DNA of 64,000 nucleotides, taken from assembly GCA_019247695.1 (NCBI GenBank), contig JAFBAP010000157.1, positions 1 to 64,000 of the forward strand. The letters run 5' to 3'. The notes beneath the pieces were generated by a model. That model was given only the letters and a program-made list of their open reading frames with translations, had not been told where the DNA came from and searched no databases. Positions 85 through 35,815 of the stretch are shown here, piece by piece. The translations under genes were made by a program, and so were the position numbers. Within the stretch, counting starts at the first letter, position 1. Each line of letters opens with the position of its first letter. Origin of the DNA: Verrucomicrobiota bacterium (GTDB lineage Bacteria > Verrucomicrobiota > Verrucomicrobiia > Chthoniobacterales > JAFAMB01).

Positions 85-511
85 GGGCCGGGTGCCGGTC
101 ACACGGCGGCCGCAGCGGGGGTGGCGGGCGCAACGTAAGAGTTCACACGGCGACCACGGCGGGCCACGGCGACCACGGCGGGAAGAGGAAAGAGTTCGGA
201 GTTCGGCGTTCGGAGTTCGGCGTTCGGCGTTCGGCGTTCGGCGTTCGGCGTTCGGAGCGGCAGCATGGGGGTGGGTGCGAGTGTCAACCTTGGAGTTGCC
301 GCCAAGTCCTCAATCTGTGTCAATCTGTGTAATCTGTGGATGGATCCTCTTTTCTGCGTTCTTCTGCGTGTTCTGCGGATGATTCTGTCTTCCCGCGGTG
401 TGAGCGTGCCCTTCGGGGGAGATCGGACTTGGTTCTACGACCCTTCCGAACTCCGAACTCCTTTCCCCCTCTTCCCGCCGGGGTCGCCGTGTTACGCCGT
501 GGCGCCGTGTG
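85..511. repeat. Composite intergenic repeat, copy A
   Basis: This gene-free stretch is the first of three copies of a composite repeat. The left arm (about 101-185) is built of CACGGCGACCACGGCGGG-type units and the right arm (about 475-511) carries the inverse units. Between them is a ~120 bp core with AATCTGTGTCAATCTGTG and TTCTGCGTGTTCTGCGGATG segments. The core is in opposite orientation to copies B (5398-5826) and C (21733-22071). The right arm overlaps the end of the HD-domain gene at 492. No believable protein is encoded; open frames here follow the repeat periodicity. Confidence 0.85.
192..254. repeat. Heptanucleotide tandem repeat, 9 units
   Basis: Nine uninterrupted 7-bp units of the form GMGTTCG (three GAGTTCG and six GCGTTCG) lie inside composite repeat copy A, between its left arm and core. 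Copies B and C have only short remnants at the equivalent place (CCGAACTCCGAACTC), so this is a local expansion. Confidence 0.9.
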
Positions 512-1043
512 ATTCCACTTCCGCCAGTAAACGGCGGACGTGTTCCAGGGCGCGCGTACCGGTTTCGGAGGTGATTCGCGCGGAGACGGCGTCCAGGTAA
601 CGGTGGGCGTTACGCAACGTCTTCGGCATTTTGGAAGTTCCGCGCCGGTGGGACACGTTATCGTAAATGTCGGCCAGCTTGACGAGGCAGACCGGTTCGG
701 GTGCGGACGCCAGCCTGGCAACGTAATCGGCTTCCCGTTCCTCTTCGGGCAGGTCCTGCGCTTTGGTCAGATTGGCGACCCAGGCTGCGGCTTCTTCACC
801 GAAGTCCGCCGCGAGTTCTTCTTTTGTGACGGGGGTGTCTTCGAGCACGTCGTGAAGGGCGGCCGCGGTAAGGGTGAGCGGGTCCTGAAGGTTGAACAGG
901 TGCCGCACGACCCAGGTCACACCAATGACGTGCGCGTGGTAGGGCGTCACCCCATCTGCCAGGGTTTGATGCCGGTGCACGCGGGCCGCGAAAGAGAGGG
1001 CCCGCCAGGTCTTATGAAAATCGGAATCCAATTCCCCCGCCAT
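492..1043 (-). CDS. HD-domain protein, (p)ppGpp-hydrolase-like
   Basis: A 183-residue single-domain protein of the RelA/SpoT-type HD hydrolase family, comparable in size to the small alarmone hydrolases (MESH1/SAH). Visible metal and catalytic elements are the AARVHRHQ helix (residues 19-26), HDVLEDT (64-70) and KLADIYDNV (122-130). No synthetase, TGS or ACT domain is present. A likely role is hydrolysis of (p)ppGpp or a related pyrophosphorylated nucleotide in the cytoplasm; the substrate is inferred. It follows the FIST gene on the same strand by 20 bp, probably as one operon. The last codons (SHGATA-stop) fall inside the right arm of repeat copy A, so its C-terminus appears repeat-derived. 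Confidence 0.8.
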   Translation of the reverse strand: MAGELDSDFHKTWRALSFAARVHRHQTLADGVTPYHAHVIGVTWVVRHLFNLQDPLTLTAAALHDVLEDTPVTKEELAADFGEEAAAWVANLTKAQDLPEEEREADYVARLASAPEPVCLVKLADIYDNVSHRRGTSKMPKTLRNAHRYLDAVSARITSETGTRALEHVRRLLAEVESHGATA

Positions 1044-5082: not shown

Positions 5083-5269
5083 ATACGCGCGAATCGGGAT
5101 CAGATCAATCCATTGCACGTACGTTTTAGGCGGACGCGCGCCAGGGCAACGCTTAAAAACCACGCCAACCTGGTGCCTCGGACCGGGGTTTTCGGCGACC
5201 TGAACGTCGACCAGGTCATCGCCGCGATCACCGGGTCGCGCAAAGGGGCCGGCTCGCCTTTTAGGATGG

Positions 5270-5341
5270 TGCGCGATGCAGGGTTTGAACCTGCGGCCCC
5301 TTGCGTGTGAAGCAAGTGCTCTACCACTGAGCTAATCGCGC
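5270..5341 (-). tRNA. tRNA-Val (anticodon CAC)
   Basis: A 72-nt cloverleaf can be folded on the minus strand. The acceptor pairs GCGCGAT with ATCGCGC, followed by discriminator A. The D arm is GCTCAGTGGTAGAGC and the anticodon stem CTTGC/GCAAG closes the loop TTCACAC. The T arm is GCAGG-TTCAAAC-CCTGC. The anticodon is CAC. CCA is not encoded. The 5' flank is occupied by the composite repeat copy B. Confidence 0.95.
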
Positions 5342-5397: not shown

Positions 5398-5826
5398 GCG
5401 GCCACAGCGAGGAGGGCGGGCACCACGTAAGAGTTCACACGGTCACACGGCGGCCACAGCGAGGAGGGCGGGCACCACGTAAGAGTTCACACGGCGAACA
5501 CGGCGAGCCACGGCGACCACAGCGGGAAGACTAAATCATCCGCAGAACACGCAGAAGAACGCAGAAAAGAGGAATCATCCACAGATTACACAAATTGACA
5601 CAGATTAAGAGGACCCGGCGGCAGCTCTAAGGTTGACACTCGCACCCACCCCTCATGCTGCCCCTCCGAACTCCGAACTCCTCTTCCTCTTCCGCCGTGG
5701 TCGCCGTGGCTCGCCGTGTTCGCCGTGTGAACTCTTACGTGGTGCCCGCCAAACCCGCTGTGGCCGCCGTGTGACCGTGTGAACTCTTACGTGGTGCCCG
5801 CCCTCCTCGCTGTGGCCGCCGTGTGC
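5398..5826. repeat. Composite intergenic repeat, copy B (long inverted arms)
   Basis: This is the most complete copy. A 45-bp unit starting GCGGCCACAGCGAGG occurs as a perfect direct repeat at 5398-5442 and 5450-5494. It recurs inverted, exactly at 5775-5819 and with a few changes at 5723-5767. Inner arms of CACGGCGAGCCACGGCGACC type (5495-5526 against 5692-5722) extend the palindrome to about 130 bp per side. The ~165 bp core holds TCCGCAGAACACGCAGAAG, CCACAGATTACAC and TCTAAGGTTGACACTCGC. It fills the space between tRNA-Val and xseA. No gene is seen in it. Confidence 0.9.
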
Positions 5827-5871: not shown

Positions 5872-7215
5872 ATGGTGCCGATTTTCTCCGTTAGCCAGAT
5901 CACGCGCCGGGTGCGCGACCTCTTGGAAAGCAACTTCGGTCTGATTTGGGTGGAAGGAGAAATCTCGAACTACCGCAAACAATCCTCCGGGCACCATTAT
6001 TTCACGCTGAAGGACGATCGAGCCCAGCTGAGTTGCGTGATGTTTGCGCGGGCCTGCGCGGCGGGCAACCCGGTTTCGCTGGGAGACGGCTTGCACGTTC
6101 AGGCGTACGGCGAACTCACGGTCTACGAAACGCGCGGCCAATATCAGTTGGTGGTCACGCTCGTCCAGACGAAGGGCCTGGGCGTCCTGCAGGCAAAATT
6201 TGAGGCCTTGAAGCAGAAGCTCCAGCTGGAAGGTCTTTTCGACGCCGGCCGGAAGCGTCCATTGCCGAAATTTCCGACCCGGGTGGCGGTGGTGACTTCA
6301 CCGACCGGGGCCGCCATCCAGGACATGTTGAACATTCTGCAGCGGCGCAGCCCCTGGTTGCGCGTACTGGTTTACCCGGTCCGTGTCCAGGGCGCGGGTG
6401 CGGCAGTCGAGATTGCCGAGGCCATCAAATGCCTGAGCGAACGCGCGTCGCAACTGGCGATCCAGGTCGTGATCGTGGGTCGGGGCGGCGGCAGTTTTGA
6501 GGACCTTTGGGAATTTAATGAGGAGGTCCTCGTTCGGGCGATTCACGCCTGCTCGGTGCCGGTGATTTCGGCGGTGGGCCACGAGATCGACTTCACCATT
6601 GCGGATTTTGTAGCTGACGTCCGCGCACCGACCCCAAGCGCGGCCGCCGAACTCGTCGCTCCTGAGATTAACGCCCTCACCAGCCATTTACAGCGTTTGC
6701 GGGCCGGCCTGGATCGTGCGGCCCGGCAAGCCCTGGAGGTACGCCGGCTCCATTTGCGCCAGCATACCGTGTCGGTGTTTCTGCGGGAACCGCTTCGCAT
6801 ATTCCAGGAGCGCCAGCAGCGGCTGGATCAGCTCGAAGGCCGGTTGCAGACCTTTCCCCAGGCAACCCTGGAAAAGATGCGTGCCCGGGTGCATCAACTT
6901 GATGCGTTGGTACAGGCCTTGCGCCCGGCCCAACAGATCCAACTGGCGCGCCGTGACCATCAACACCTTCAGAATCGGCTGGTTACCGCGATGGCCGCGC
7001 GGCTCGATGACCATCACGAGCGCCTGCTCGCGGCGGTCCGTCACTTGCGCCTGCTGGGCCCGCAACAGACCCTCGAACGCGGCTACTCAATCACCCGGGA
7101 TGACCAGGGACGCGTGATCCACAGCACTGCCCAAGTGCGGCCCGGAGCAACGATCCGCACCCAGGTCAGCGACGGCGAAATCATCTCCGCCGTTCCGGAA
7201 GCCCGTCTTCCCTAG
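5872..7215 (+). CDS. xseA: Exodeoxyribonuclease VII large subunit
   Basis: A 447-residue protein with the N-terminal OB-fold (about 1-100, including LIWVEGEISNYR and HHYFTLKDD) and the central catalytic domain. That domain carries TSPTGAAIQDMLNIL, VIVGRGGGSFEDLW and SAVGHEIDFTIAD. A long helical C-terminal part (about 265-400) is followed by the ERGYSI segment. With the small subunit XseB it degrades single-stranded DNA to oligonucleotides. No xseB gene follows; the next gene is convergent glgB. The ATG at 5872 lies 45 bp beyond repeat copy B, so its promoter must lie in or next to the repeat. Confidence 0.95.
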   Translation: MVPIFSVSQITRRVRDLLESNFGLIWVEGEISNYRKQSSGHHYFTLKDDRAQLSCVMFARACAAGNPVSLGDGLHVQAYGELTVYETRGQYQLVVTLVQTKGLGVLQAKFEALKQKLQLEGLFDAGRKRPLPKFPTRVAVVTSPTGAAIQDMLNILQRRSPWLRVLVYPVRVQGAGAAVEIAEAIKCLSERASQLAIQVVIVGRGGGSFEDLWEFNEEVLVRAIHACSVPVISAVGHEIDFTIADFVADVRAPTPSAAAELVAPEINALTSHLQRLRAGLDRAARQALEVRRLHLRQHTVSVFLREPLRIFQERQQRLDQLEGRLQTFPQATLEKMRARVHQLDALVQALRPAQQIQLARRDHQHLQNRLVTAMAARLDDHHERLLAAVRHLRLLGPQQTLERGYSITRDDQGRVIHSTAQVRPGATIRTQVSDGEIISAVPEARLP

Positions 7216-19329: not shown

Positions 19330-20243
19330 TGTTGCGGCTTGGCACGCGTCGGAGCGCTTTGGCCATGGCGCAAACCCGGCTGGCGGCAGGTGCATTGGCC
19401 CGCCTCGACCCGGCCGTGCCCGTGGAGATCGTAAAAATCACGACCACCGGCGATCGCCGTCTCGACGTGAGCCTGCTGGACCCGGGGCCGGCCCTTGAGC
19501 GCGGGCTTTTCACTCGGGAGATCGAACAGGCGCTTCTCGCGGACGCCATCGACGTTGCGGTGCACTCGCTGAAAGATTTGCCGACCACACTGCCTGACGG
19601 GCTCGAACTTGCGGCGGTCTTACCTCGCGAGGATCCGGCCGATGTGCTCGTTACCCGGACGCCCTCAACTTTGGTTCAGCTGCCGGCCGGCGTGAAGATT
19701 GCGACGAGCAGTGCCCGCCGGGCGTGCCAGCTTCTTTACCTCCGGCCGGACCTGGAGATCACCGAGATTCGAGGGAACGTGCCGACCCGGCTCGCCAAAC
19801 TCGCCGGCGACCCTTCCTTGTTCGGGCTGGTCCTGGCCAAAGCCGGTCTCCGGAGGCTCGGCTTAAGCACGGGGTCCGCGTTGGTGCAGTCTGCAGACGT
19901 GAGCCTTTACGCGGTCGAACTACCCGAGATGCTCCCGGCCGCAGGTCAGGGCATCATTGGGTTGGAGATTAAAACCGCCAACGAACGGGCCCGCGGTTGC
20001 CTGGAACGCATTAATGACCCGGCGACCTGGCACTGCGCCCGGGCCGAGCGCGATTTTCTGCAGTTGATTAACGGCGGTTGCGGCGTACCCGTGGGGGTTC
20101 GAACTTGGACTGCGGACAACACGTTGCACCTTCAGGCCGTGGTGTTTGACCGGGGTACCAACCCGCGAACGGGGCAGGTGGCCGTCCCCCTTGAGGATCA
20201 TCGAGGTGCGGCTGCCGCGCTTTTGGAGAAAATTTATGAGTAG
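19329..20243 (+). CDS. hemC: Hydroxymethylbilane synthase (porphobilinogen deaminase)
   Basis: A 304-residue enzyme that polymerises four porphobilinogens. Visible family segments are RLGTRRSALAMAQ, HSLKDLPTTLPDGL, SSARRACQLLYLRPD, EIRGNVPTRLAKL, and INGGCGVPVG with the cysteine that carries the dipyrromethane cofactor. The start ATG overlaps the hemA stop by one base (TGATG); the upstream GTG codons are less likely. Its own stop lies inside the start of cobA-hemD (8-bp overlap), so the operon is tightly coupled. Confidence 0.96.
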   Translation: MLRLGTRRSALAMAQTRLAAGALARLDPAVPVEIVKITTTGDRRLDVSLLDPGPALERGLFTREIEQALLADAIDVAVHSLKDLPTTLPDGLELAAVLPREDPADVLVTRTPSTLVQLPAGVKIATSSARRACQLLYLRPDLEITEIRGNVPTRLAKLAGDPSLFGLVLAKAGLRRLGLSTGSALVQSADVSLYAVELPEMLPAAGQGIIGLEIKTANERARGCLERINDPATWHCARAERDFLQLINGGCGVPVGVRTWTADNTLHLQAVVFDRGTNPRTGQVAVPLEDHRGAAAALLEKIYE

Positions 20244-21747
20244 TAATGGTACATGCATCCTGGCCGGAGGCGGCCCGGGCGATTTGGGGCTCGTGACTCT
20301 GCGGACCAAAGCGGCGATCGAGCAGGCGGACGTTTTGATCTACGATTACCTTTGCAATCCGGACCTCTTGCAGTGGGCCAAGCCGGGAGCCGAAGTGATT
20401 TACGCCGGCAAACAGGCGGGCCGTCACACGCTTTCCCAGGATGAAATCAACCAATTGCTGATCGATCGGAGCCAATCCGGCAGGGTGGTGGTCCGCCTCA
20501 AGGGCGGTGACCCGTTCGTCTTCGGCCGGGGAGGTGAAGAAGCCGAGGCGTTGGCCGAGGCCGGCCTGCCTTTCGAGATCGTTCCCGGCGTAAGTTCGGC
20601 CGTGGCGGCGCCGGCCTACGCCGGTATCCCGGTCACGCACCGGGATTATAGTTCTTCGTTCACCGTGTTTACCGGGCATGAAGATCCGGCCAAAGCCGGA
20701 TCCGAGATCAACTACCGCGCCCTGGTCGAGAGTGGAAGTACCCTTGTCATGCTTATGGGGATGGAGCGGCTGGCCGAAATCGTGCGCAGCCTCCAGGAGG
20801 CCGGTGCAGCCCCGGACACGCCGATCGCTCTGGTCCGGTGGGGTACAACCGGCCAGCAGACCACCAGGGTAAGTGATCTCGCCCACGTAACGGAGGCAGC
20901 CGAAGGTTTGACCGCCCCGGTGGTCGCCGTTGTGGGTGAGGTCGTCCGGCTTCGGCAAAAGTTGGCGTGGTTTGAGAGACGGCCGCTTTTCGGGCGCCGG
21001 ATTGTCGTCACCCGTACTCGGAAGCAGGCCGGGAACCTCAGCGACCGGTTGCGGCTGCTCGGGGCAGACGTGCTGGAGATCCCGACGATCCGCATACTCC
21101 CGCCGAAGAACCTGATGGAATTTGGCGAACTGGTGCGCGACGCCTACCAGTACGACTGGGTGATTTTTTCAAGCGTGAACGGCGTTGAGGCCTTCTTTGA
21201 AATGTTCCTCAAACTTTATAGTGACCTGCGCGAGATCGGCAACGTGCGCATTGCCGCGATCGGTCCCGCCACCGCTCAAAGGATCCGCGATTATCACCTC
21301 GGGGTGGACGTGCAGCCGTCGGAATTCGTTGCGGAAGCCGTGGTGAGCGCCCTGCAGGGACAGGGGAGCGTGGAAAATATCAGGATCCTGGTGGTTCGCG
21401 CCGAAACGAGCCGTGACGTGTTGCCGAAACGACTCACCGCCCTCGGCGCCATCGTCGATGAGGCCGTCGCTTACCAAACCGTACCCGAAACCGAAGACCC
21501 GCACGGGGTGCTCAAGCGTTTTCGCGAAGAGGGCGCCGACATTATTACTTTCACCAGTTCATCCACGGTCGAGAACTTTCTCAACCTCCAACTTCCGTGG
21601 CCGCCCGGGCTCAGGACCGTCAGCATCGGGCCCATTACCTCGGAGACGATGCGTAAATGCGGTTTGCGCGTCGATATTCAGGCGAGCCGATACGACATCG
21701 ACGGGCTCGTCGAAGCCATCGTGGATCAATTCGGTCACACGGCGTGA
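20236..21747 (+). CDS. Uroporphyrinogen-III C-methyltransferase / uroporphyrinogen-III synthase fusion
   Basis: A 503-residue two-domain protein. Residues 1-255 are a CobA/SUMT domain with [52 protein letters not shown] and GTTGQQTT. Residues about 260-503 are a HemD domain starting [21 protein letters not shown]. It closes hydroxymethylbilane to uroporphyrinogen III and methylates it to precorrin-2, feeding haem d1/sirohaem/B12 branches. It follows hemC with an 8-bp overlap. Its last codons, FGHTA-stop, are made of the GGTCACACGGCGTGA end of repeat copy C, so the extreme C-terminus is probably repeat-derived. Confidence 0.95.
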
Positions 21748-22071
21748 AGAGGCACACGGCGCCACGGCGGAACGCGGCGACCACGGCGAGAAAATTAAAT
21801 CGTCCGCAGAACACGCAGAGAATGCAGAAAAGCGGAAACGTCCACCGATTACGCCGATTGACACAGATTAACAAGACCCGGCGGCGACTCTAAGGTTGAC
21901 ACTCGCACCCAACCTCCATGGTGCCGCTCTGAACTCCGAACTCCGAACGCTTTCCCCTCTTCTCGCCGTGTTCGCCGTGGCCCGCCGTGTTCGCCGTGTG
22001 AACTCAGTCGTTGTGCCCGCCAGACCCGCCGTGGTCGCCGTGTTCCGCCGTGGCGCCGTGTGCCCCTTTTG
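21733..22071. repeat. Composite intergenic repeat, copy C
   Basis: This gene-free stretch between cobA-hemD and rpsU holds the third copy. The left arm (21733-21793) is of the CACACGGCGCCACGGCGG type. The core has TCCGCAGAACACGCAGAGAA, GATTGACACAGATTAAC and TCTAAGGTTGACACTCGC. The right arm (21961-22071) is of the CGCCGTGTTCGCCGTG type. The core has the same orientation as copy B. The left arm overlaps the stop codon of the upstream gene. It has diverged more from copies A and B than they have from each other. Confidence 0.85.
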
Positions 22072-24739: not shown

Positions 24740-24787
24740 GTCTTAGCTTTGTCAGCCAGCCGCCGGACTCAAGCTTAAAATAAATCC

Positions 24788-24916
24788 CACAAGCGGAAAA
24801 ATGCCACGACTGCCACAAATGAAGAGCGAGTAGCGCCGTCTCTCTTACCGGACACCCGGCACCCGGCACTCGTCTTCATTCGCGGCATTTTTCCGCTCGT
24901 GGCATTTGTGGCATCA
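24788..24916. repeat. Intergenic inverted repeat of the GCGGAAAAATGCC type
   Basis: GCGGAAAAATGCCACG (about 24795-24810) is mirrored by GGCATTTTTCCGC (about 24885-24897). The sequence TGCCACAAATG is mirrored by CATTTGTGGCA at the far end. The spacer contains GACACCCGGCACCCGGCAC. It ends 8 bp before the start of the B12-binding gene, so it must overlap that gene's promoter or leader. Confidence 0.65.
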
Positions 24917-26111: not shown

Positions 26112-27889
26112 GTTCTCTCGGCCAGGTTGTTTCAGCGGTTCGCGCCTATCGTCGATACGTACAGGAACAAGTCCGGCGCGTCCGCCGGGAGCCGGCCTTT
26201 GCCGGCCAGGTAATGTCGCGCTGGGCGGAAGTCAGAGCCCAAATCGGTACGACGCGTACCCCGACCGGGCTCGAGCTGCCCCGGTTGGCTTTGCCGCCGT
26301 ACGACGAACCGGGCGAAATCCTGCGGTACCTTCTGGAGGGCGGGTTGCCGGGCGAGTTCCCGTTCACGGCGGCGGCTTACCGCGAGCAATACCTTGAGCC
26401 GGGCGAGGCGATCCAGCAGAACAACCATCCGGCGCGAGCCGTGCCGCCCGAGGAACCGACCCGCCTCTTCGCCGGCCTCGGCCTTCCGGAAGACACCAAT
26501 GAGCGTTTTCATTACCTCTCGCGCAACCAGCGTTCCAAGCGCCTCAGCACCGCCTTTGACGGTCCGACCCTCTACGGCGTCGGAGCGGGTGCGGATGGCG
26601 TGTTCGGCAAGATCGGCGAGGGAGGGGTCGCCGCAGACACGGTCGACGACATGGAGCGCCTGTATGCCGGGTTCAACCTGGACCAGCCCCAGGTTTCCGT
26701 CTCGATGACGATTTCGGGTCCCGCTCCGATCCTGTTGGCCATGTACGTGGCCGCGGCCAAACGGCGGTTCGGGGATGGGGTCCTCACGCAGTTGCGCGGC
26801 ACCATCCAGGCTGATGTGCTCAAAGAGGTCCAGGCCCAGAATGAATTGGTTTTTCCAATCGAGCCGTCACTCCGTTTTCTCGCCGACATGGTCGATTTTT
26901 GCGCGCGCACCATGCCTCGCTGGTACCCGATCTCCATCAGCGGCTATCACATCGCCGAAGCGGGCGCAACGCCGGTGCAGCAAGCCGCCTACACCCTTTC
27001 AAACGGGTTCGCCTACGTCGAGTATTTCCAAAATCGCGGGATGGAGGTGAACGCGTTCGGGCCCCGGCTTTCCTTCTTTCTGGACTGCGCCCTGGACGTC
27101 GAATACGTCGCCCTGGCCCGGGTCTGCCGGAAAGTTTGGGCGATCGGCATGCGGGATGCCTTCAACGCGGATCGCCGGGCGCAACTCCTGAAGCTTCACA
27201 CCCAGACCAGCGGCCGGTCGTTGATCGCGGCCGACTGGAAAAATAACCTTACCCGGACCGCCATCGAACTGCTGCTGGCCTGTATGAACGCCACCAATTC
27301 CTGCCATAGCAATGCCGCGGATGAACCGTTCACGACCCCGGGCGAAGAATACGCCCGCTACGCCGCTCACGCCCAGGCCATTCTGCTCGAGGAAAGCGGC
27401 GTGTTCCGGCACATGATGAATACCTTGCCGGGGTCGCCCGGCATGCGCGTGATCGGGGAGGCGGTGGAAGAAGCTGTGCTGGAAGAGTTTGAAACCATCG
27501 AGGAACAAGGCGGCGTGCTCGGTGCGGTCGAGCGCCGTTACCAGCGCAGCCAGATCCAGGCGTCAGCCTACACCCTTGAACGCCAGATTCACGACGGCGA
27601 GCGCCCCCTCATCGGACAAAACCGTTACCGTAACGGTGAAGCGGTATGGCCGGACCACGCTATGGTTCGTACCCCGGCGGCGAAAAAGCAGCTTCACCTG
27701 GACCGCCTCCACGATTTCGAAAAAAGGCACGCTGCGGAGAGCGAGCGCTGTCTGGATCAACTTTCCCAAGCGGTGGATAAAAACGCGAATGTATTCGCCG
27801 AGCTCATCAACACCGTTGAGCACTGTTCACTCGGGCAGATCACCAGGCGGCTCTGCGAACAGGTCGGCAGGTTCCGGCCGCTTGTGTGA
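26108..27889 (+). CDS. Isobutyryl-CoA-mutase-type catalytic subunit (IcmF C-terminal half)
   Basis: A 593-residue acyl-CoA mutase barrel. RLFAGLGLPEDTNERF (119-134) and KRLSTAFDGPTLYG (144-157) match the IcmF substrate-binding region. The GTIQADVLKEVQAQ stretch (231-244) places Gln244 at the site that is Arg207 in methylmalonyl-CoA mutase. Phe121 takes the place of its Tyr89. Phe and Gln here are the isobutyryl/butyryl-CoA pattern, so methylmalonyl-CoA is an unlikely substrate. SGYHIAEAGA holds the catalytic His. No B12-binding domain is attached; it is supplied by the upstream gene, with which it overlaps by 4 bp. Confidence 0.9.
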   Translation: MSSLGQVVSAVRAYRRYVQEQVRRVRREPAFAGQVMSRWAEVRAQIGTTRTPTGLELPRLALPPYDEPGEILRYLLEGGLPGEFPFTAAAYREQYLEPGEAIQQNNHPARAVPPEEPTRLFAGLGLPEDTNERFHYLSRNQRSKRLSTAFDGPTLYGVGAGADGVFGKIGEGGVAADTVDDMERLYAGFNLDQPQVSVSMTISGPAPILLAMYVAAAKRRFGDGVLTQLRGTIQADVLKEVQAQNELVFPIEPSLRFLADMVDFCARTMPRWYPISISGYHIAEAGATPVQQAAYTLSNGFAYVEYFQNRGMEVNAFGPRLSFFLDCALDVEYVALARVCRKVWAIGMRDAFNADRRAQLLKLHTQTSGRSLIAADWKNNLTRTAIELLLACMNATNSCHSNAADEPFTTPGEEYARYAAHAQAILLEESGVFRHMMNTLPGSPGMRVIGEAVEEAVLEEFETIEEQGGVLGAVERRYQRSQIQASAYTLERQIHDGERPLIGQNRYRNGEAVWPDHAMVRTPAAKKQLHLDRLHDFEKRHAAESERCLDQLSQAVDKNANVFAELINTVEHCSLGQITRRLCEQVGRFRPLV

Positions 27890-27892
27890 AGG

Positions 27893-28112
27893 TGTGACGG
27901 GTAACTGGCAACGCGTAACGGGTAACGGGTAATGAGTGCCGTGCAATGCCCGGGTATGCCGGCGAGTACGGCGGGAACGTTTACAGGGCGCGGGGGGCGA
28001 AAGACAGCGAGAAGACAAATGCCGGCCCTTGATACCTGGTCACAGTGCTCAGAGTCACACGCCGAACAGCACACGGTACCCGCCACGCGTTACCAGTTAC
28101 CCGTTACCCGAT
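27893..28112. repeat. Intergenic inverted repeat of the GGGTAACGGGTAA type
   Basis: The left side (about 27898-27933) reads GGGTAACTGGCAACGCGTAA then CGGGTAACGGGTAA. The right side (about 28080-28112) is its inverse, ACGCGTTACCAGTTACCCG then TTACCCG. About 145 bp separate them. The element fills the gap between the mutase gene and the convergent aldo/keto reductase gene. No gene is seen inside it. Confidence 0.7.
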
Positions 28113-28114
28113 TC

Positions 28115-33671: not shown

Positions 33672-35711
33672 ATGGCCTCTTTATCGGCCCGCTCCCCCTT
33701 GTGGCTACCGGATCGTACGCGCGCCACTCACCTTACGCGTTTTATGGCGTGGCTTGCGCGCGACCAGGGAGCGCAGTTTGCGACTTACCAGCAGCTGTAT
33801 GAGTGGTCCATAGCCCACCCGGACCGCTTCTGGTCCGCCATTGCCCGTTACTTCCACGTACGATTCGGCGCGGCGCCGGCCGGCATCCTGGAAGCCGGCC
33901 ACAAGGCGATGAATGCGGTCTGGTTCCCGGGCGCCACCCTCAATTTCGCGGAGCACCTGCTCCGGTTTTCACCGGACGAGAACTCCGTCGACCCTGGCCG
34001 GACGGCCGTCGTGTTCCGCTCGGAATCCCGGGTGAGCTCCGTAGAGATCAGCCGGCGCGAACTTTGCGAGCAGGTGGCCGCCGTGGCCGGGCGATTCCGC
34101 TCCCTTGGGCTCGAAGCGGGCGACCGTGTGGCCGCGTACCTGCCCAACCGCCCGGAAACGCTTGTTGCGTTTCTCGCGGCCGCCAGCCTCGGCGCCATCT
34201 GGTCGGTCGTGCCGGTAGAACTCTCCAGCCACGGCGTGCTCGATCGTTTCACCCAGATCCAGCCGAAGCTGCTGGTGACCACTGCGGCGTACCGTTACGA
34301 CGGCAAGTTCTACGACCGGCGCGAGTCAATCGACCGCATCGTTGCCCAACTGCCTTCGCTTGAGGCCGTGCTTTTGATCCCCTCAGATCCCGCGGCTGAA
34401 AACCGGGCCCCGGGCGATTGGAGTGTTCCGGGGATCCCGGGGGTCACGATGATCTCCTGGACCGAGGCGACGTCGACCCCTGCACGCCTCCAATTCACGC
34501 GGGTCCCGTTCGCGCATCCGCTGTGGATCCTATACTCGTCCGGAACGACCGGGGCACCCAAACCCATCATCCATGGACACGGCGGCATGCTGCTCGAACA
34601 CCTGAAGGCATTACACCTGCACCTCGACCTGTCTGCCGGAGACCGCTTTTTCTGGTACACCACGGCGGGCTGGATGATGTGGAACTTTGTGATCGCCGGC
34701 CTTGCCCTGGGTTCGACGGTCGTTCTTTACGACGGCTGTCCGAAGTTTCCCGACCTGAACGTGCTGTGGCGATTTGTTTCTGAAGAGAGAATCAATTACT
34801 TCGGGACGAGTGCCCCTTTTTTGATGGCCTGCCGGAAAGAGGGGCTGCGGCCCGGTGCAGCGTTCGACGTGACCCGGTTGCGGGCGATTGGGTCGACGGG
34901 CGCACCTTTGCCGCCGGAAGGGTTTGAATGGGTGTATCGGGAGGTCAAATCGGACGTCTGGCTCGGTTCGATCAGCGGCGGGACGGATGTCTGTACCGCC
35001 CTTGTTTCGAGCAACCCCTTGCTGCCGGTTTACGCCGGGCAATTGCAATGCCGCGCCCTCGGCGCCCCGGTCGAAGCCTGGGACGCAGACGGGCGGCCGG
35101 TCCTTGACGAGGTCGGCGAACTGGTGCTGACCGGCCCGATGCCGTGCATGCCGGTCGGATTCTGGAATGATCCGGACGGCCAGAGATTCCGGGACGCGTA
35201 TTTTGACGTGTACCCCGGAATCTGGCGTCACGGCGATTGGATCCGGATCAACGCGGCGGACGGTCAGTGCATCATTTATGGGCGGTCGGACTCCACGCTG
35301 AAGCGCGGCGGCGTCCGGATGGGTACCAGCGAATTTTATCGCGTGGTCGAAACCCTGCCGGAAATTGCGGAAGCGCTGGTGATTGACACTACCCGCCTGG
35401 ACGTGGCCGGCGCAACCGGCGAGTTGCTGCTGTTCGTGGCCTTGCGTCCGGGTGCCCGGTTCGACGCGGTGCTCCGCGACAAGATTGCGGCGACGCTCCG
35501 CGCCGATTTGTCTCCGCGCCATGTGCCGGACGCGATCTATGCCGTCCCGGAGATCCCCCATACGCTGAACGGCAAGAAGATGGAGGTGCCCGTGAAACGG
35601 ATTTTTGAAGGTGTCCCGCTTGAGCGGGCCGCCAGCCTGCACGCGGTGGCCAACCCCGATGCGCTCCGGTTCTTCGCGCGCCTCGCTCACACCGCGGGCA
35701 CGGCGAAGTAG
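33672..35711 (+). CDS. Acetoacetyl-CoA synthetase
   Basis: A 679-residue ANL-superfamily ligase. The family N-terminus (PLWLPDRTRATHLTRFMAWL) is present. The ATP loop is LYSSGTTGAPKPIIHGHGG, followed by FFWYTTAGWMMWNF and SISGGTDVCTALV. The C-terminal domain has IYGRSDSTLKRGGVRMGT and the catalytic lysine in LNGKKMEVPVKR. It activates acetoacetate with ATP and CoA for ketone-body or polyhydroxybutyrate metabolism. A 3-hydroxybutyrate dehydrogenase at 61115 could supply acetoacetate. The final residues (HTAGTAK) abut a degenerate composite-repeat fragment. Confidence 0.95.
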   Translation: MASLSARSPLWLPDRTRATHLTRFMAWLARDQGAQFATYQQLYEWSIAHPDRFWSAIARYFHVRFGAAPAGILEAGHKAMNAVWFPGATLNFAEHLLRFSPDENSVDPGRTAVVFRSESRVSSVEISRRELCEQVAAVAGRFRSLGLEAGDRVAAYLPNRPETLVAFLAAASLGAIWSVVPVELSSHGVLDRFTQIQPKLLVTTAAYRYDGKFYDRRESIDRIVAQLPSLEAVLLIPSDPAAENRAPGDWSVPGIPGVTMISWTEATSTPARLQFTRVPFAHPLWILYSSGTTGAPKPIIHGHGGMLLEHLKALHLHLDLSAGDRFFWYTTAGWMMWNFVIAGLALGSTVVLYDGCPKFPDLNVLWRFVSEERINYFGTSAPFLMACRKEGLRPGAAFDVTRLRAIGSTGAPLPPEGFEWVYREVKSDVWLGSISGGTDVCTALVSSNPLLPVYAGQLQCRALGAPVEAWDADGRPVLDEVGELVLTGPMPCMPVGFWNDPDGQRFRDAYFDVYPGIWRHGDWIRINAADGQCIIYGRSDSTLKRGGVRMGTSEFYRVVETLPEIAEALVIDTTRLDVAGATGELLLFVALRPGARFDAVLRDKIAATLRADLSPRHVPDAIYAVPEIPHTLNGKKMEVPVKRIFEGVPLERAASLHAVANPDALRFFARLAHTAGTAK

Positions 35712-35770
35712 CGGGCACGGCGGATCCGCGGAACATGCAGACAACACAGAAGGGGATCCACGTGTTCATC
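35711..35770. repeat. Fragment of the composite intergenic repeat core
   Basis: GGCACGGCGGATCCGCGGAA followed by CATGCAGACAACACAGAAGGGGATCCACG resembles the TCCGCAGAACACGCAGAAG...GATCCATCCAC core of copies A-C. The arms are missing. It sits directly at the 3' end of the acetoacetyl-CoA synthetase gene. Confidence 0.6.
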
Positions 35771-35815
35771 GCTTGACGCCCGGTACGCTGCCGTTGCGAA
35801 CGCCAAACCGCTGCT

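Follow-up and report, generated by a model that had tools for sequence, protein, structure and literature searches.

Nested palindromic repeats at gene ends of a Verrucomicrobiota genome resemble REPINs and BIMEs and occupy sites shared with a sister species

The genome of this uncultured Verrucomicrobiota bacterium carries a family of composite, non-coding palindromic repeats, here called family 1, which makes up roughly 2% of the genome and breaks its assembly. The loci are nested inverted shells, and the sites that they occupy are shared with a sister species in which the contents differ. The reading that we favour, tentatively, is that these are non-autonomous palindromic elements similar to REPINs and BIMEs, spread by a putative helper, nesting at persistent sites and remodelled by recombination. 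Family-1 repeats occur patchily across the phylum and beyond, and the persistence of sites and turnover of contents can be tested with two genomes. This combination bears on a long-standing question, which is whether palindromes between bacterial genes are kept as mobile parasites or as useful gene-end structures.

The three copies that the original prediction had placed in the window (the whole stretch of 64,000 nucleotides analysed) are present. Copy A (86..512, minus strand), supported by module annotation and sequence and with a core match of 152.9 bits (nhmmer), consists of shells K-J-E-D, core C-B-A (243-389, minus), module H, and D and E arms. The stop codon TGA at 82-84 precedes it, and it ends at the 3' end of a minus-strand gene (492-1043). 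Copy B (5398..5826, plus strand), supported by its inverted arms, fold and flanking genes, has tRNA-Val (5267-5341, minus) on one side and xseA (5872-7215, plus; TIGR00237, 481 bits) on the other and is ordered as shells J-K-J-E, core A-B-C and E-J-K-J-K arms. Its core cassette (5529-5678, plus) comprises module A (CCGCAGAACACGCAGAAG...), module B (ATCCACAGATTACACA...) and module C (GGCGGCAGCTCTAAGGTTGACACTCGCACC...). Copy C (21729..22062, plus) has an E shell, core A-B-C (21794-21941, plus), D, and E-J-E arms. The gene directly before it, a uroporphyrinogen-III C-methyltransferase/synthase fusion gene (20146-21747), takes its stop codon TGA (21745-21747) from the left end of the element. As predicted, the core of copy A is oriented opposite to those of copies B and C, and no transposase lies inside or adjoining the copies. 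Three is nevertheless an undercount, as the window holds at least three further members or remnants, listed here without strand. A smaller member at 24786..24914 is a G shell (AAATGCCACAAATG) around f units and is collapsed to a short G remnant in the sister species; an intergenic site at about 27889..28114 is occupied by an F shell (GGGTAACGGGTAAC) in this genome and by a G shell in the sister species; and a degraded remnant at about 35711..35815, with A/B- and E-like words, corresponds to a full element in the sister species.

Copy B has the inverted arms of about 130 bp, with four 45-bp units, that had been described for it. The left arm (5398..5525, plus) and the inverted right arm (5692..5819, minus) are 128 nt each, 96% complementary and separated by 166 nt. 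Perfect copies of the 45-bp unit lie at 5398-5442 and 5450-5494 in the left arm; a 51-nt stretch containing the unit is 100% complementary at 5775-5825, and the fourth unit copy, at 5723-5767, is 91% complementary. The very long hairpin anticipated from these arms is also predicted by folding, at -325.5 kcal/mol versus -156.6 +/- 5.7 kcal/mol for shuffles (z = -29.5). An Rfam search of the window at gathering thresholds returned tRNAs only and no other curated RNA family, and plasmid and phage collections contained no match to copy B.

When the whole 5.19-Mb genome was searched with the core, 288 first-look candidates yielded 42 scored matches, and an alignment of 30 genomic copies has conserved core boundaries; neither of the contrary outcomes named in the original prediction, few other copies or no conserved boundaries, was observed. 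Repeats were annotated by abundant words and then by modules in a sample of about 1.22 Mb (20 contigs including the window), with gene calls from the simple hexamer caller of this analysis rather than from published annotation. The sample contains 94 loci with at least four modules, which extrapolates to roughly 400 in the genome; because most of the sampled contigs were chosen for holding a core match, counts per Mb are possibly somewhat high.

Each shell is built of degenerate tandem units of 7-10 bp, such as CACGGCGAa, CACAGATTa, CGCAGAAca, GGGTAAC and GCCACAAAT, and a swappable cassette, for example the ABC core, is innermost. Module A is CCGCAGAACACGCAGAAGAACGCAGAAAAGAG, module B is ATCCACAGATTACACAGATTGACACAGATTAAGAG, module C is GGCGGCAACTCTAAGGTTGACACTCGCACC...GCTGCCGCTC, module D is (CGAACTCC)n, module E is CACGGCGAACACGGCGAGCCACGGCGACCACGGCGGGAAGAG, modules K/J are GTCACACGGCGGGCACAGCGGG...GCGGGCACAACGTAAGAGTTCACACGG, modules F/f are runs of GGGTAAC and GGGTGTCG, and module G is the word given above for the smaller member; modules H and M are further cassettes. 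The shell modules are directed inward, with inward to outward matches of 85:1 for K, 117:3 for J, 162:10 for E, 45:5 for G and 44:4 for F. Shells of G, F and K-J-E surround the D shell and cassette (H-A-B-C, M, or others), an order that is a tendency and not a rule, and G-type words are found also inside E shells. The description of a composite repeat with a core and inverted arms is correct, but the family is not defined by its core: the shells are nested one within another, and the ABC core, whose C part was seen only in this species, is one among several interchangeable cassettes.

Modules A and B are paralogous (alignment score 14 versus -4.4 +/- 3.0 for shuffles), and their units are spaced 9,10, those of module E 9,10,9. 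Single A and B modules have a predicted fold of 0 kcal/mol, K-J, F and G fold no better than shuffles, and only module E has weak local pairing (z -3.4). Since single A or B modules do not fold, the predicted hairpin arises from the pairing of opposite arms. Forty sampled arm pairs are spaced 70-343 bp, and none encloses gene-sized cargo. Strong homogenisation of arms within loci was considered and rejected; it is only weak, with a mean score of 91.8 within versus 83.6 between loci, and the partner in the same locus is the best-scoring arm in 6 of the 40 pairs.

The other searched member of the genus, the MAG 'Verrucomicrobiota bacterium isolate CP_BM_RX_22' (G001), is syntenic with the genome studied (G000) at about 85% nucleotide identity. 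A seemingly independent relative (locus L093, in G418) was rejected as such, being the same MAG with coinciding match positions, and was counted once. All 83 gaps with flanking genes aligned between the two species were compared. Eight hold an element in each species, 2 in G000 only, 3 in G001 only and 70 in neither, a co-occupancy with an odds ratio of 93 (p = 1.8e-7); in several of the gaps occupied in a single species the other species still shows one module word. The contents of common sites in G001 are shorter palindromes, other shells and other cassettes. In place of copy B there is CACACGGTGGCGCCGTGTG, a short palindrome, with a short arm fragment, and in place of copy C there is GGTCACACGGGGTAAGAGTTCACACGGCGCCGTGG, also a short palindrome, with arms meeting at the palindrome centre CACGGC/GCCGTG. 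A G shell in G001 replaces the F shell at C159:41.7k and C157:27.9k, and at C109:72.2k the outer G and F shells are common to both species and the interiors differ. Because orthologous gaps are co-occupied with differing contents, these are old, shared sites with contents that turn over. The compared orthologous gaps include no clean empty/filled pair with a target duplication, and therefore insertion itself is unobserved between the two species. The original picture of insertion is modified to this extent, that sites persist in the sister species and what they hold changes.

The turnover extends to whole modules. Module C occurs at 22 per Mb and module M at 13 per Mb in G000, both at 0 in the 0.49 Mb of G001 compared, and modules A and B have equal densities in the two species. 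As module C is absent from the compared G001 DNA, the ABC core at the sites of copies B and C is most simply a gain in this species. G shells of G001 also enclose a small ATATCGCGCGC...GCGCGATAT palindrome (C187 33.7-34.4 kb versus L141 1-234; L104), a cassette absent from the sample of this genome.

Exact copies of module E (CACGGCGANCACGGCG) number 631 in G000, 43 in G001 and 1 in nine other family genomes, which indicates a lineage-specific amplification. At site C, G003 (same family, other genus) has no element, and GGTCACACGG is found at one and the same codon in G000 and G001; the arms there were thus most simply gained in the common ancestor of G000 and G001. A third genus of the family (G004) has at site C an inverted pair of unrelated tandem units (GGAGCTAGAATCTAGGATCTAGGAGG ... 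CCTGGATTCTAGCTCCTAGCTCTTAGCTCC), and these units recur at other places in the genus as inverted pairs, each with a unique loop (L213/L258-L261).

Under the favoured reading, each element would consist of two inverted arms that can pair into a long hairpin, and the arms would be copied to new places, mostly right behind stop codons, by a helper supplied elsewhere. Elements would prefer, or survive at, gene ends and the insides of one another. New arms and cassettes would tend to enter existing copies, and shells would therefore nest. The repeated inverted arms would then allow ordinary recombination and slippage during replication to invert the interior, to exchange it, or to make it expand or collapse, with the site staying occupied. 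We infer actual mobility, a single-stranded hairpin intermediate, the helper, and recombination as the cause of the turnover. In favour of this reading are the copy number, the inward-facing modules, the placement at gene 3' ends, the amplification of module E, the species-restricted cassettes C and M, the gain of site C, and the inverted pairs around unrelated loops in distant Verrucomicrobiota, an arrangement known from REPINs (PMC3116915). Against it, no helper gene linked to family 1 and no arm pair with gene-sized cargo was found in the DNA sampled, and no target duplication was seen. Alternatively, the sharing of sites could reflect loci that are mostly old and do nothing but recombine.

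This alternative, in which nothing transposes at present and old repeat sites change only through homologous recombination, gene conversion and slippage between shared arms and tandem units, is the main rival, rather unlikely yet deserving serious weight. Inverted arms flip interiors through ordinary recombination, and flipped cores and swapped cassettes would follow from remodelling of this type alone, so the earlier suggestion that units insert in both orientations is too simple. The co-occupancy of orthologous gaps, the outer shells kept around different interiors at C109:72.2k, and the same ABC core found within different shells all agree with it. It leaves unexplained the spread of modules to sites numbering in the hundreds, a copy number of module E 15-fold higher than in the sister species, the acquisition of site C once the lineage had parted from G003, and arms that are only slightly more alike within a locus than between loci.

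The placement of the loci relative to genes bears on a different account. One of the 94 loci is more than half inside a called gene, and the others lie between genes. The distance from the element edge to a gene 3' end has a median of 5 bp (10 bp or less in 60 of 102 cases), and that to a gene 5' end a median of 60 bp (10 bp or less in 7 of 74). Elements occupy 23 of 141 convergent gaps (16%), compared with 47 of 671 tandem gaps and 11 of 140 divergent ones (both 7-8%), and occupancy is commoner in convergent gaps than in the rest (p = 0.0009). Elements that abut stop codons, are commoner in convergent gaps and have very strong predicted folds could be structures selected at gene ends, serving to terminate transcription from both sides, to protect the 3' ends of RNA, or to bind a nucleoid protein or gyrase, as proposed for BIMEs. 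This appears improbable to us: no intrinsic terminator (GC stem plus T run) was found at copy B, the minus-strand neighbour at site C keeps its own hairpin-T terminator in G000, G001, G004 and G010 regardless of the adjacent sequence, most gaps have no element, and the sparing of promoters alone would yield the same placement.

The original prediction had proposed a search for a REP-type transposase gene, and such a gene exists in the genome but is flanked by a different repeat family. G000 has two Y1 transposase genes, one of the IS200/IS605 type and one RAYT-like. The IS200/IS605-type tnpA (L031, contig C19:62262-62624) adjoins a tnpB-like gene, and no family-1 repeats surround it. The RAYT-like genes of G000 (L032) and G001 (L273) have on both sides a second family of true palindromes (CCCAGGGTTTACCCTGGG, GGCCCAACGGGCC, AGGGGCGGCAGAAC), and family-1 arms flank neither gene, a single isolated module-B copy lying behind the preceding gene at L032. 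The second family is the RAYT/REP system of this genome, and family 1 is not linked to it. The Y1 gene in G004 likewise has its own REP-like flanks. That family 1 represents the REPINs of the resident RAYT is therefore very unlikely; a RAYT-like gene is present in both species and the architecture and placement are REPIN-like, but the gene is flanked in both by CCCAGGGTTTACCCTGGG and AGGGGCGGCAGAAC palindromes, modules A and B do not fold alone, and the genera richest in Y1 genes lack module E. The RAYT is likewise disfavoured as the family-1 helper, and no helper gene linked to family 1 was found in the DNA examined. An assembly or binning artefact of a short-read MAG is scarcely credible. 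Many contigs end in copies, and 12 of 94 loci are at or near the end of a sequence piece, but true repeats cause contig breaks at copies, and interior copies have unique flanks that are syntenic on both sides with an independent MAG.

The second superfamily, unrelated to family 1, includes the words CCCAGGGTTTACCCTGGG, GGGACTGAAGTCCC, GTCCCGAAGGGAC, GGCCCAACGGGCC and AGGGGCGGCAGAAC and forms intergenic composites of up to about 500 bp. It is present at L032 (contig C153; about 1280-1430 and 1990-2320) and at many other loci, among them C109:1209-1687 and C36:32579-33022.

Strings similar to family 1 had been expected in other Verrucomicrobiota, and this is borne out. The module-B word CCACAGATTACACAGATT, with at most one mismatch, is found in 55 of 388 genomes of the phylum and in 40 of 199 genera, with a patchy distribution; the reversed pattern, used as a control, was never found in the 388 genomes. 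G000 has 99 copies per strand. Several copies in other Verrucomicrobiota form inverted pairs of 50-110 bp with unrelated loops, as REPINs do, often tightly between two genes, and a Hydrogenedentota genome also carries an inverted pair. A few IMG/VR contigs carry this word, and none carries the E arm.

One of these, a predicted viral contig (IMGVR_UViG_3300037264_001851, 29.7 kb; L265, L266), has several copies of CCACAGATTACACAGATT, two of them as an inverted pair. In the single-contig genome G117 (contig C1; L236, L237), copies of CCACAGATT at about 2.72-2.74 Mb and 3.20 Mb are for the most part arranged in direct tandem arrays accompanied by a T run and a tail of TTGAGATTGGTTGT, not in inverted pairs. 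In a distant genus, short CACAGATT palindromes lie at matching gene junctions of two pairs of species (L181/L182 in G160 and G085; L180/L183 in G413 and G260), with the hairpin kept, and one pair of these palindromes sits between divergent gene starts (trmO/cobB-like genes).

Family 1 shares features with several known systems. REPINs are REP doublets that form hairpins (Bertels and Rainey 2011, PMC3116915), and like them family 1 has hundreds of extragenic copies, two inverted conserved arms, a variable interior, a predicted long hairpin and lineage-specific amplification. The arms of REPINs are REPs found next to RAYT genes, whereas those of family 1 consist of degenerate 7-10-bp units in a row; neither A nor B is palindromic alone, the shells are several deep, and no RAYT is flanked. 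Like BIMEs (PMC2817692), with which it shares hybrid content and interstrain variation, family 1 is a mosaic of several intergenic inverted repeat units. BIMEs, however, are built of palindromic REPs in alternating orientation with tandem modules, while family 1 is concentric and no REP units occur in its modules. As with MITEs, the elements are non-autonomous, with inverted ends and no coding capacity. MITEs have a common, fixed interior and target duplications, whereas cassettes of family 1 differ within G000, loops are unique in other genomes, and no duplication was seen among the compared gaps, which include no clean empty/filled pair. The direct TAACTGA repeats (MacGregor 2015, PMC4679880) are also short intergenic tandem units in distant phyla with no evident mechanism, but they are pure direct heptamers near start codons and have no inverted shells. 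The exact repeat strings and related words returned nothing in a full-text literature search, and for palindromes of Verrucomicrobia the only relevant match was a survey of GTAG/CGTC-tagged REPs (PMC3733652), described also for a species of that group (O. terrae). Those are palindromic intergenic repeats of the same phylum, but single tagged palindromes of 20-40 bp, a type that the second family resembles and family 1 does not. In how it works family 1 is like a REPIN or BIME, but it lacks two of the features that define REPs, a link to a RAYT and arms that are imperfect palindromes. It has no description in the literature searched and is possibly a distinct class. It is conceivable, though we would not yet call it probable, that this class extends across phyla as concentric palindromes with a shared grammar of 7-10-bp units (the 9/10-bp phasing of A, B and E), persistent gene-end sites and a vocabulary replaced by lineage, spread by a mechanism other than RAYT/REP.
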